Source: Planctomycetota bacterium
GTDB taxonomy: Bacteria; Planctomycetota; MHYJ01; JACQXL01; JACQZI01
Assembly: GCA_016207825.1 (NCBI GenBank)
Contig: JACQZI010000040.1
Coordinates: 1-25,890, forward strand
Direction of reading: 5' to 3'
Length of the DNA stretch: 25,890 nucleotides
Made by a program: the position numbers and the translations under genes. Position 1 is the first letter of the stretch; the number at the start of each line of letters is the position of its first letter. Shown in pieces: positions 21,363-24,992 of this stretch. Under the pieces are notes generated by a model that searched no databases, was not told the origin of the DNA, and was given only the letters and a program-made list of their open reading frames with translations.

Positions 21363-21773
21363 ATGAAAGCGCAGCGACAGCGGAGTCCCGCCCCAAGCGG
21401 GGAAGCAATTAGGTATCTTAATAATGCCAGGGGCATCCTGCGGAAAGCCCCGCGGGAAGGACGGGTCTATACCGATATCAAACCGGTCAGGGAAGCTTGC
21501 GGCACGGCGTATTTAGCCGTTCTTGAAGCCATCAATGCATATCTCTTGAAGCAGGGGCTGACAAAAAAAGAATTGCCCCGTTCCATGGAGGCTTATCAGA
21601 AAACACTCCGTAAATATGGTGGTATCCACAATGGTAAACTCTTCCGTGACTTTGATAAACTCTATGATGAATTGCATATTGCGGGCTACTACCGGGGACT
21701 TCTCTGGGGAACAGGTGCGGTTCAGGATGCTTTTAACCTTGCCCAGCAGTTTATTTCCAAATTATCTAAATAA
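21363..21773 (+). CDS. DUF5618-like (HEPN-like) helical protein
   Basis: This 136-aa protein has the wording I associate with the DUF5618 family: EAIRYLNNARGILRKAP, VREACGTAYLAVLEAINAYL, and DELHIAGYYRGLL near the C-terminus. The all-helical layout is HEPN-like, a fold shared by several RNases and toxin or substrate-binding proteins, but the usual RxxxxH catalytic pair is not evident. The first 14 residues (MKAQRQRSPAPSGE) are encoded by a palindromic, GC-rich stretch related to the REP-like elements, so this N-terminus may be derived from an inserted element. The expression signal is a leaderless-type promoter. A small promoter-terminator unit follows directly. Confidence 0.8.
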   Translation: MKAQRQRSPAPSGEAIRYLNNARGILRKAPREGRVYTDIKPVREACGTAYLAVLEAINAYLLKQGLTKKELPRSMEAYQKTLRKYGGIHNGKLFRDFDKLYDELHIAGYYRGLLWGTGAVQDAFNLAQQFISKLSK

Positions 21774-21777
21774 AATC

Positions 21778-21806
21778 TTGACAAATCCATAACTATCGTT
21801 TATAGT
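21778..21806 (+). promoter_or_regulatory. Consensus promoter just after the DUF5618-like gene
   Basis: TTGACA (21778-21783) and TATAGT (21801-21806) are separated by 17 bases. The -35 box overlaps the end of the upstream gene region. The predicted start is about 21813, only about 50 bases before a terminator. Confidence 0.75.
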
Positions 21807-21830: not shown

Positions 21831-21868
21831 AGCCTGTCACCTTTCGGTAGAAAGGCGACAGGCTTTTT
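21831..21868 (+). terminator. Rho-independent terminator
   Basis: The stem has AGCCTGTC paired with GACAGGCT and CCTTTC paired with GAAAGG around a GGTA loop, with one A/C mismatch in between. Five Ts follow directly (21864-21868). This is the clearest terminator in the window. Confidence 0.85.
21835..21862 (+). repeat. Left copy of a perfect 28-bp inverted repeat
   Basis: The sequence here is the exact reverse complement of 22057-22084. Each copy is itself a near-palindromic hairpin sequence. The left copy is the core of the terminator. Confidence 0.85.
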
Positions 21869-21876
21869 ATTTGGTT

Positions 21877-21888
21877 ATCACCTCCTTT
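21877..21888 (+). other. Anti-Shine-Dalgarno-like 12-mer
   Basis: ATCACCTCCTTT equals the universal 3' tail of 16S rRNA, preceded by GGTT as in that tail. On the other strand it reads as a perfect ribosome-binding site, but no ORF follows it within reach. It sits 8 bases after the T-run of the terminator. Confidence 0.5.
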
Positions 21889-21925
21889 AACATACCTAAT
21901 TCATTATTATCTAATGGGTTACATT

Positions 21926-21999
21926 CACCACAAAGGCACAAAGAGCACGAAGGCGTAATCTCTTGTTTTCTTCTTTGTGACCTTTGTGTATTTGTGGTG
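21926..21999. repeat. Imperfect inverted repeat built of CACAAAG units
   Basis: The arms 21926-21952 and 21970-21999 share CACCACAAA and CACAAAG blocks at matching spacing. They consist of near-9-base units, like the CGAAT repeat at 17077. The repeat lies inside the larger 28-bp inverted pair. Confidence 0.65.
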
Positions 22000-22056
22000 C
22001 ATTTTTTCTAATTACCTATCATATAAGCTGTTAAATCTTATTGCCATATCCGATAC

Positions 22057-22084
22057 CCTGTCGCCTTTCTACCGAAAGGTGACA
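22057..22084 (-). repeat. Right copy of the perfect 28-bp inverted repeat
   Basis: Exact reverse complement of 21835-21862. Unlike the left copy it is not followed by a T-run on the plus strand. Confidence 0.85.
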
Positions 22085-22101
22085 TCCGTGCCTCAAGCCC
22101 C

Positions 22102-22130: not shown

Positions 22131-22153
22131 GATGGGAAAAAGGAGGCTTGAGT

Positions 22154-22873
22154 ATGCACACTGAGGGCGTTCAGCACGAAGTGGGACAATGGGTGTTAAA
22201 CGGGCGAAAGTTCCTGACTGACGAAGAAATAAGGCGGTTAAAGAGAGTTTGCGCCCTGCCCGCCGGGCAGGGACTCCCTATCGTCCCGCAGAGCGAAGCG
22301 GAGCGGGGTAGAACAGAAAGGGAAAGAGTGATTATTAACCTGGGACTTCTGGCTGGTTTAAGGGTAAAGGAGGTTGCTGACCTGAAATGCGGGGATATTT
22401 CTATCGGGACACAAATGTCTTCCCTGACTGTCCGTAACGGCAAAGGCGGTAAGATGAGATTAGTCCGGTTTAATGGGGAACTGAAGGAATCTATTATGAA
22501 CTATTTAAAATATAAGGAGGCAAAAGGTGAGGAATCAGGGACAGACGACCCCCTGTTCAAGTCAGACCTGCCCCCCGACCCGCCTGCCGGCGAGGCAGGA
22601 AGCATCGGGGTTCAGGCGGGTAAGAACAATAAACAGATAAGCAGACGCACAATTCAGCGGGTATTTGAACGGATGGCGAAAACGGCTGGCATTATTGGAC
22701 ATTCTTTTCATCACTTGCGACACACCTATGCCAGCCATTTATACCGGGCGAGTGGATATAACCTGCGGCTTGTCCAGAAACAGTTGGGCCATGCAAGCAT
22801 CAAGACCACGCAGGTTTACGCGGATGTCTTCGATGAAGACTTAACGAAAGCAGTAGAGAAGTTGTATATATAA
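22154..22873 (+). CDS. Tyrosine recombinase (XerC/D-type catalytic domain)
   Basis: This 239-aa protein has the catalytic set Arg70 (LAGLRVKEV), a Lys in the NGKGGK beta hairpin (about 96-100), His186/Arg189 (HHLRH), His213 (LGHAS) and Tyr222 (QVYADV). It cuts and rejoins DNA through a 3'-phosphotyrosine. The start is the ATG at 22154, seven bases after AGGAGG; a TTG two codons earlier is possible. The usual N-terminal core-binding domain is nearly absent (about 30 residues before the catalytic part), so it is unusually short. Two segments look inserted in frame: about residues 34-52 and 139-156, each encoded by a GC-rich hairpin sequence. Inverted repeats lie just upstream. The targets are not known. 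Confidence 0.92.
   Translation: MHTEGVQHEVGQWVLNGRKFLTDEEIRRLKRVCALPAGQGLPIVPQSEAERGRTERERVIINLGLLAGLRVKEVADLKCGDISIGTQMSSLTVRNGKGGKMRLVRFNGELKESIMNYLKYKEAKGEESGTDDPLFKSDLPPDPPAGEAGSIGVQAGKNNKQISRRTIQRVFERMAKTAGIIGHSFHHLRHTYASHLYRASGYNLRLVQKQLGHASIKTTQVYADVFDEDLTKAVEKLYI
22253..22315. repeat. Palindromic element inside the recombinase frame (first)
   Basis: CCCTGCCC (22254-22261) and GGGCAGGG (22265-22272) form a perfect 8-bp hairpin. It is followed by a CGCAGAGCGAAGCGGAGCGG stretch, whose reverse complement resembles 16965-16987. It adds about 19 codons that have no counterpart in typical recombinases. Confidence 0.65.
22573..22620. repeat. Palindromic element inside the recombinase frame (second)
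   Basis: CCCCGA/TCGGGG (22573-22578 and 22605-22610), CCTGCC/GGCAGG (22583-22588 and 22594-22599) and CCCGCCTG/CAGGCGGG (22579-22586 and 22613-22620) give several alternative hairpins. It encodes the Pro/Gly/Ala-rich residues at about 140-156. Confidence 0.7.
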
Positions 22874-22902: not shown

Positions 22903-23292
22903 ATGAACCAGATAAAATGGATGATTGTCTTAACAATAGGATTAATCCCGCTTTTGGCAATGGGATGCGCTTCTATCATAACAGGAACCTCACAACAGGT
23001 TAATTTTAATTCTAACCCTGCTGGTGCAAAGGTCGTCATTGAGCCGGGTGGAACAACCGGTACCACCCCTTTTACCGCGAAATTGGCAAAGGGACGGTCC
23101 TACACATGCACGGCAACAAAAGACGGGTATGACCCGGATACCCAGCATATCGGAAAAGTTTTTAACGGCTGGTTTGTTGGAAATGCTCTTATTGGCGGTA
23201 TTCTTGGGGTGATAATTGATATTGCAGACGGAGCCTGGTTTAACTTAAGTATAGAATCTGTAAATTTTCAACTTCCACCCAAACAAAAATAA
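22903..23292 (+). CDS. PEGA-domain lipoprotein
   Basis: This 129-aa protein has a signal peptide ending in AMGC (Cys22), though Ala at -3 makes the lipobox weak, then a PEGA-type beta domain (about 30-75; QVNFNSNPAGAKVVIE, TTPFTAKL, YTCTATKDGY). A hydrophobic glycine-rich segment follows (about 88-112; WFVGNALIGGILGVIIDIADGA). PEGA domains are common in surface and envelope proteins and usually bind other proteins or sugars. A GGGAGG lies 9 bases before the ATG. It sits 29 bases after the recombinase and starts a run of small exported proteins. Confidence 0.85.
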   Translation: MNQIKWMIVLTIGLIPLLAMGCASIITGTSQQVNFNSNPAGAKVVIEPGGTTGTTPFTAKLAKGRSYTCTATKDGYDPDTQHIGKVFNGWFVGNALIGGILGVIIDIADGAWFNLSIESVNFQLPPKQK

Positions 23293-23309
23293 GCAGGAGG
23301 GGCTTTATC

Positions 23310-24431
23310 GTGAAAAGGCTATTATTTGTTTTGCTGTTAGCGATCACTTCGCTTGGTTACGGCGGGATGTGCAACAAATCGGGCGGTGGTGGAGATACCT
23401 CCAGCGGAAGCAGCGCACCTCCTCCTCCATCACAAGTAGGTTCATGGGCCTATACCACAGTAGTTTCTACCGATTGGACTCTTGGTAATACTTCCATTAC
23501 CATAGATTCCAATAATAAGGTTCATGTCTGTTGCTATGACGACACGAACGGTAACCTTATATATATCACCGATGCTTCCGGTCCCGTAGTTGTCACAACC
23601 ATAATTATCCCCGGTGTGGTTGGCCAATATAACTCTATTGCACTGGATTCCAATAACAAGATTCACATCAGTTGTTTTGACTATACTAACCGTGACTTAA
23701 TATATGTAACGAATGTCTCAGGTTCGTGGGTTTATAGCACATTGGATTCTAACGGTGCCGTTGGTATGCATACTTCCATTGCCGTTGACAAGAATAACAA
23801 AGTCCATATCAGTTATGTTGACCTTAGCGATAATTTGAAATACGCTACTAATGCCTCCGACTCATGGGCCATATCTACCTTGGATTCTGCCTATAACGAT
23901 TCAGATACTTCCATTGCGCTGGATTCCAATAATAAAGTTTACATCAGTTATGAATATTATGATGGACTGGATACCAGCCTTAAATATGCCACCAATGCCG
24001 GAGGGGGCAGTTGGATTTATACGACCTTGGATTCTTCGGTGGCTGATATCGGTTATTCTAACTCCATTAAATTGGATTCTAATAATAAGGTTCACATTAG
24101 TTATGAAGATTTAACTAACAAAGACCTGAAATATGCCACTAATGTTTCAGGGGCTTGGGTGCTTGCTACCCTGGATTCTACCGGCTGGGTTGGTTATAGC
24201 ACCTCCATTGCGGTTGATTCTAATAATAAGATACACATTGCTTATTATGATAATACTAATTATGACCTTAAATATGCGACTAATGCATCGGGTTCCTGGG
24301 TCTGCAAAACTTTGGATTCTGCCGTTGATGTCGGTTTTGCTTGCAGTATCGCCAGGGATTCTAACGACAAAATTCATATCAGTTACTATGATACCACGAA
24401 TGATGATTTGAAATATGCCACGAATAAATAA
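23310..24431 (+). CDS. Exported seven-repeat protein, probable beta-propeller
   Basis: This 373-aa protein starts at GTG 23310, nine bases after AGGAGG. A signal peptide (about 1-20) is followed by a Gly/Ser/Pro linker (about 22-41) and seven repeats of about 45-48 residues with the pattern SW..TLDS...VG..SIA.DSNNKVHISY.D.TN.DLKYATNASG. Seven blades suggest a beta-propeller, a platform for ligand or protein binding. The repeats are also similar at DNA level, with recurrent GATTC(C/T)AA(T/C)AA(T/C)AA motifs, so they arose by recent duplication or stay uniform by recombination. Cys21 could be a lipid anchor, but the GGMC lipobox is poor. Specific ligand unknown. Confidence 0.85.
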   Translation: MKRLLFVLLLAITSLGYGGMCNKSGGGGDTSSGSSAPPPPSQVGSWAYTTVVSTDWTLGNTSITIDSNNKVHVCCYDDTNGNLIYITDASGPVVVTTIIIPGVVGQYNSIALDSNNKIHISCFDYTNRDLIYVTNVSGSWVYSTLDSNGAVGMHTSIAVDKNNKVHISYVDLSDNLKYATNASDSWAISTLDSAYNDSDTSIALDSNNKVYISYEYYDGLDTSLKYATNAGGGSWIYTTLDSSVADIGYSNSIKLDSNNKVHISYEDLTNKDLKYATNVSGAWVLATLDSTGWVGYSTSIAVDSNNKIHIAYYDNTNYDLKYATNASGSWVCKTLDSAVDVGFACSIARDSNDKIHISYYDTTNDDLKYATNK

Positions 24432-24440
24432 GGAGATATG

Positions 24441-24992
24441 ATGAAAAATAAAACGTCCCGACCGAAGGTATCGGGATTGGCTTGTCTTATCTTACTCATG
24501 GGCATGGGGCTAATGGGTTGTAATTCGAAATACTTTACCGTTCTTGAAGCCCCTTCAAAACCGTTTAACAATTTTAGTCAAATCGAGATTAAGGAATTAC
24601 AGATTGATATTGCTGATTTCAACAACTTGTCGCCGGAAGAACAAGCAGGCACACAGAAATTTACTGCCGGGCTTTCCCACAGGCTCCAAGCCTGTTTCTT
24701 GGAGAAAGGTTTTTTCGTTTCTAAAACAGGCGAAAAGCTAATCCTTGAAGGGCGGGTGCTTGAATTTAATCCCGGAAGCAAAACTGCCAGATGTCTGCTG
24801 GGCGTTTATGGGGTAGGGAAAGGTAAAATTATTGTTGAAGTGACGTTTTCCAGCCAGGATGGGACGCTTATTGCCAAAGGCACTGCCGAAGGCGGCGTGT
24901 CTACAGGAACATTAGGCGGAGAGATGACGGAAGCCGTAGAACGCCTGGTCGATGCCATTGCCGATTTCGTGGAAAAGAATTATCAAAAGTAA
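24441..24992 (+). CDS. DUF4410-like lipoprotein
   Basis: I chose the ATG at 24441, since AGGAG at 24431-24435 leaves 5 bases to it but only 2 to the ATG at 24438. The 183-aa product has a lipoprotein signal ending in LMGC (Cys27), then a domain with alternating beta and helical parts (FNNFSQIEIKEL, LILEGRVLEFNPGSK, KIIVEVTFSSQDG, ERLVDAIADFV) that resembles DUF4410-type lipoproteins. The N-terminal codons (about 5-12, TSRPKVSG) lie over a TCCCGA...TCGGGA palindrome, another member of the repeat family inside a coding start. The function is unknown. Confidence 0.78.
   Translation: MKNKTSRPKVSGLACLILLMGMGLMGCNSKYFTVLEAPSKPFNNFSQIEIKELQIDIADFNNLSPEEQAGTQKFTAGLSHRLQACFLEKGFFVSKTGEKLILEGRVLEFNPGSKTARCLLGVYGVGKGKIIVEVTFSSQDGTLIAKGTAEGGVSTGTLGGEMTEAVERLVDAIADFVEKNYQK

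Follow-up and report, generated by a model that had tools for sequence, protein, structure and literature searches.

A candidate self-controlled terminator inversion switch with dif-like sites upstream of an Xer-like recombinase gene in Planctomycetota

The analysed window, a stretch of 25,890 bp from a Planctomycetota bacterium (contig JACQZI010000040.1), contains a pair of 28-bp inverted repeats directly upstream of a tyrosine recombinase gene. This arrangement probably constitutes a self-controlled terminator inversion switch, in which the adjacent recombinase would invert the segment between two dif-like sites and gate its own gene as well as the lipoprotein genes behind it. According to this model, the short tyrosine recombinase would bind the four inverted arms of two Xer/dif-like core sites, cut on either side of the 6-bp centre and invert the segment of about 200 bp, the promoter at 21778 staying fixed outside. 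In the present orientation the transcript would meet the hairpin of site 1 and its T-run and stop, leaving the recombinase and lipoprotein genes largely off. After inversion GTATCGG would stand behind the hairpin, termination would be lost and the recombinase-lipoprotein unit would be read. Since the recombinase gene lies behind the switch, the switch would control its own recombinase. The model was built from features legible in the sequence, namely the two sites with their matched inverted centres, an arm consensus, a promoter, an orientation-dependent terminator, the catalytic residues and a layout conserved in related loci.

The two repeat copies (21835-21862 and 22057-22084) match at 28/28 positions and stand 194 bp apart. 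The preliminary description had reported perfect 28-bp inverted copies flanking about 194 bp upstream of the recombinase, each copy being nearly palindromic, and the analysis confirmed it in both respects. As a rough estimate (25.9 kb squared / 2 x 4^-28), a 28/28 inverted repeat would arise in the window by chance with a probability of about 1e-8. A genome-wide search of the 2.89-Mb genome returned only these two copies of the 28-mer, even when 3 mismatches were allowed; the numerous copies elsewhere that had been named beforehand as counter-evidence are thus absent. Each copy follows the plan of a dif-like core site, two inverted arms of ~11 bp around a 6-bp centre (CGGTAG / CTACCG). Site 1 (21834-21861, + strand) shows the 11-6-11 arrangement CTGTCACCTTT CGGTAG AAAGGCGACAG with its centre at 21845-21850, and site 2 (22058-22085, - strand) is its inverted copy with the centre CTACCG at 22069-22074. 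The near-palindromy of the copies is no argument against recombination sites, since the core sites of tyrosine recombinases are expected to have palindromic arms. Comparison with the same-genus genome G001 revealed the same base change in both copies (GGCGACA in both window copies, GGTGACA in both G001 copies), which indicates that the two sites change together. No known RNA family was detected at the gathering threshold within the window.

The gene next to the repeats encodes a short Xer-like tyrosine recombinase (22154-22873, + strand). Its ATG at 22154 lies 69 bp past the right repeat copy and is preceded by a good ribosome-binding site (AAGGAGG, 22140-22146); the longest open frame begins with TTG at 22148. 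The protein of ~240 aa matches PF00589 (9e-30) and has only a short region before the catalytic domain. It possesses the full catalytic R-K-H-R-H-Y set of tyrosine recombinases, and the corresponding residues R71, K98, H187, R190, H214 and Y223 (numbering of window:22151-22870) are invariant in an alignment of 11 members. The claim that inverted copies resembling recombination sites adjoin a tyrosine recombinase was supported, and this enzyme is catalytically complete. The predicted structure (mean pLDDT 77) is nearest to XerH bound to difH (5jjv), IntI4 (2a3v) and XerA (5hxy), and on this modelled basis the recombinase is assigned an Xer-type catalytic-domain fold. The protein is Xer-like but no member of a named group: it scored 115 bits against an NCBIfam cut-off of at least 220 for the XerA/XerC/XerD equivalogs, to which it is related without belonging to them, and 21-23 bits against a cut-off of at least 221 for FimB/FimE-type invertases. 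A palindromic element (22256-22312) with about a dozen genomic occurrences (E<1e-3) lies in frame inside the recombinase gene. It is absent from the G001 recombinase, where a 57-nt gap is found, and other inserts of G001 are likewise frame-keeping in length. Another genomic copy (C23:170981-171038) is also situated in an open frame. The in-frame palindromic elements of Rickettsia resemble this element.

In order to find related loci, the recombinase profile was run on 392 Planctomycetota genomes and the flanks of the matches were scanned for the arm-centre-arm plan. A two-site layout upstream of related short recombinases was found at 12 loci (10 independent): the window, G001, G007, G088, G254 (two copies), G152, G381, G323 and G191 and, more weakly, G144 and G125. 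The centres differ between loci (CGGTAG in the window and G001, CATAGG in G007, GATTCG in G088, GAAGCG in both G254 copies, GTGCCG in G152, CATCAG in G381, TTGGGA in G323, CTAGTG in G191 and, at the weaker loci, ATCGCG in G144 and CCTGAG in G125), and in each of the 12 loci the centre of the second site is the exact reverse complement of that of the first. The sites are 154-234 bp apart from start to start, and the profile match starts 40-134 bp downstream of site 2. From 40 half-arms of ten loci the half-arm consensus GTTCRC-NTWW was obtained, in which C4 reaches 1.7 bits. Strand exchange by tyrosine recombinases needs a matched centre, and the inverted orientation of two sites dictates inversion. 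Since the centres drift between loci and stay matched within each locus while the arms are common, the site pairs fit recombination sites set for inversion; judged from these sequences, the layout would fit such an arrangement and not dispersed repeats.

Because the first scan had demanded a matched centre, the scan was redone blind (SIGNIFICANCE), the best upstream pair being picked by its outer arms alone. For 10 of the 15 loci, eight of them independent, the pair picked in this way had centres with a 6/6 inverted match. Of 831 control windows drawn from these 15 loci, none gave a 6/6 match, the maximum being 5/6. The pairs of G144 and G125 were detected only when the centre was used. No site pair was found upstream of the recombinase relatives in G026, G185 and G377, and additional searches for closer relatives, within the class, within the family and again across the phylum, added no loci. 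The recombinase relatives of Acetothermia have one strong hairpin each and no partner site was found there. In two of these loci (L005, 4833-4864; L007, 1375-1406) a perfect hairpin TGTCGCAACAAAA-N6-TTTTGTTGCGACA precedes the recombinase, with conserved arms and a differing 6-bp centre (GGACTC vs GAGCCC).

The occurrence of the module is sporadic (4/23 genomes of the class, 3/16 of family f30 and 1/33 of family f50). This would agree with another explanation, which we consider unlikely, namely that mobile DNA, in the form of an integrative element or captured genes, uses the sites as attachment or attC-like sites, which would make the inverted pair a landing pad and not an expression switch. 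The differing cargo genes among the loci and the high similarity of the two G254 copies, which starts within 3 bp of site 1, point in the same direction. However, inverted sites yield inversion and not excision, a search of flanks up to ~10 kb for a further site sharing the centre and having comparable arms found none that was convincing, and the G254 copies are similar for ~28 kb without a site-like right end. The G254 duplication was considered as a mobile unit and rejected: its left edge is at site 1, and the similarity reaches the ends of the compared stretches with no right end. Integron attC/attI sites were also rejected, as the arms (GTTCRC/TGTCRC) differ from the GTTRRRY core boxes and the examined flanks contain no cassette array. 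Both G254 copies (L077, L078) adjoin Cas3-like helicase genes. A plasmid or phage origin was rejected: there was no DNA match to plasmids, and the protein matches were distant (at most ~34%).

Regarding the proposed terminator inversion switch, a sigma-70-like promoter TTGACA-17-TATAGT (21778-21806, + strand, consensus 11/12) is directed toward site 1 and the recombinase gene. It is the best one in the 60 bp upstream (p=0.005 vs random windows of the locus), and its predicted position outside the segment was borne out. The promoter is kept in G001, but there an insertion of ~115 bp separates it from site 1. A terminator hairpin of 32 nt (21832-21863, + strand, -22.2 kcal/mol) is built on site 1 and is followed by TTTTTATTT, its T-run (21864-21872) lying inside the segment. 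This hairpin was missed by a generic terminator scan and was found by a dedicated scan of both orientations. When the segment was inverted in silico about the centres, the site-1 hairpin was followed by GTATCGG and the strong intrinsic terminator of the present orientation was lost, as the preliminary description had anticipated for both the T-run and the sequence replacing it.

The segment predicted to invert comprises the 194 bp between the 28-bp repeats (21863-22056); its ends are conserved and its middle is replaced in G001. The middle (21926-21999) holds an imperfect hairpin that consists of a dispersed CACAAAGG-type repeat and has CATTTTTTCT behind it; fragments of the repeat are found elsewhere in the genome. 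The repeat is absent from G001, which has a different hairpin at this place. The length of the segment is kept despite the replaced middle (198 bp in the window vs 199 bp in G001 between the 26-mers). Also inside the segment and conserved in G001 is ATCACCTCCTTTAAC (21876-21894), which on the + strand equals the 3' end of 16S rRNA and on the - strand a perfect Shine-Dalgarno sequence; in the inverted form no start codon fits behind it.

The readout was compared across the loci. A sigma-70-like promoter was found just upstream of site 1 in the window, G007, G381 and G323 (p 0.002-0.012) and a weaker one in G125 and G144. In G007, as in the window, the strong intrinsic terminator of the present orientation disappeared on in silico inversion. 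In G001, too, the strong terminator is confined to the present orientation, with a weaker hairpin arising when the segment is turned round. G381 behaves the other way: it lacks a terminator as it stands and gains a weak one by inversion. No intrinsic terminator was detected in either orientation in the high-GC members G088, G152, G254, G191 and G323. A terminator as family-wide readout was thereby ruled out: of the originally proposed switch, the terminator present in one orientation only held for the window and did not carry over to the high-GC relatives. The terminator reading appears, from the sequences compared, to fit the window and its nearer relatives. It is improbable that the recombination sites are real but that inversion moves a promoter or RNA element inside the segment instead of the terminator; the high-GC members without intrinsic terminators and the weak promoter-like matches inside the segments of G254b, G191 and G144 would be consistent with this, but in the window and G007 the only strong promoter is located outside the segment, and a strong terminator depends on the orientation.

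Similarly improbable is that the pair acts in RNA and no DNA is inverted. In that case the leader transcript, or a short RNA that ends at the site-1 terminator, would use its arms and complementary hexamer loops to pair with site 2 of the recombinase leader and would in this way control expression of the recombinase. Kissing loops would also require matched complementary centres, a promoter immediately precedes site 1, and folding of the strand yields a long helix between site 1 and site 2 (z -7.5). Against this, the GTTCRC arms are conserved between loci of differing centres, although RNA pairing alone would permit compensating drift of the arms; moreover, the lengths of arms and centre match those of Xer sites and the neighbouring gene encodes a recombinase. 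The caveat raised at the outset was that the pair might be two dispersed repeats. This reading, in which they would be ordinary palindromic repeats unrelated to the recombinase, one of them serving as a terminator, finds some footing in a genus rich in dispersed palindromic repeats and in the near-palindromy of each copy, but it is very improbable, as a dispersed REP-like repeat would be expected in many copies and there are two, their position is conserved in G001, and the comparison of the family, with analogous pairs and locus-specific matched centres, effectively refutes it.

As for the orientation of the proposed switch, the preliminary description had suggested comparing strains for the inverted form. 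G001 showed the same orientation as the window, and the inverted form was likewise not found between G254a and G254b. The comparison covered these two pairs, the interiors of the other segments being too diverged to align. The left site is usually more palindromic than the right. Such a bias would not be expected with the two orientations at equal frequency and suggests one predominant state.

The closest precedent for the proposed terminator inversion switch is the cwpV/RecV switch of Clostridioides difficile. There, an invertible segment of ~195 bp is flanked by inverted repeats, a fixed upstream promoter lies outside the segment, and in the OFF form an intrinsic terminator is located at the left repeat, with a surface protein gene downstream (PMC2784873). 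The window shares with cwpV the small segment between inverted repeats, the consensus promoter outside it and the terminator in one orientation only. The flipping of a terminator rather than a promoter, originally put forward for the locus, is thus not new, being already known from C. difficile; if the segment flips, what would be new is that the recombinase's own gene lies behind the switch. RecV acts in trans from an unlinked gene, the cwpV repeats are imperfect (21 bp) and inversion has been proven (PMC2784873), whereas in the window the gene that comes first after the proposed switch is that of the recombinase, the repeats are two-arm and dif-like, and inversion is predicted. The fim switch of E. 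coli (FimB/FimE, fimS) also combines short tyrosine recombinases with a small adjacent segment bounded by inverted repeats, but fimS carries its promoter inside the segment. dif sites have an 11-6-11 plan of two ~11-bp arms and a 6-bp centre (PMC5357621), and XerH/difH as well as XerS/difSL resemble the window in catalytic fold and arm-centre plan and, for XerS, in the recombinase lying beside its site (PMC5357621). However, dif is a single site per chromosome serving dimer resolution, whereas the window has two inverted sites in one locus, and the N-terminal region of its protein, unlike that of the Xer single-recombinase types, is short. Gut invertons, too, are short stretches of DNA that invert and are associated with tyrosine recombinases and surface genes; they typically carry promoters, and their nearby invertases are generally placed beyond inverton control (PMC11892184), unlike the window recombinase, which its segment could control directly. 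A search of PubMed Central text found no paper combining invertible segments, recombinase and Planctomycetes.

If flipping occurs, the locus would provide a compact system with the recombinase gene behind its own switch and thus a directly testable feedback. One protein family would then read a naturally occurring set of recombination sites, kept separable by hexamers that are specific to each locus and matched within it. More tentatively, the loci might represent a Planctomycetota family of self-gating inversion modules, each with a stripped-down Xer recombinase behind its own dif-like segment, the switch setting the enzyme dose, a private crossover hexamer separating the copies, and varied secreted outputs; this wider proposal is possible, although we hold it with less confidence than the switch in the window.

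Downstream of the recombinase gene follow three closely spaced lipoprotein/secreted-protein genes (22903-24992, + strand), which form an operon-like run with it: a PEGA domain gene (22903-23292), a repeat protein gene (23310-24431) and a DUF4410 gene (24438-24992), all on the + strand. These three genes stand in the same order in G001. Among the related loci the downstream genes vary, encoding PEGA and DUF4410 lipoproteins, a Calx-beta/Ig protein, a kelch lipoprotein, a C39-like peptidase and an fn3 protein, and many of the products have signal-peptide-like or lipoprotein-like starts. A DUF5618 gene (21363-21773, + strand; PF18498, 1.4e-34) is located just upstream of the promoter in the window, is also present upstream in G001 and probably lies outside the switch. 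In the window, a secreted protein contains seven tandem copies of a 141-bp (47-aa) repeat (23481-24442), and the G001 protein at the place of the repeat protein (23310-24431) is much shorter.
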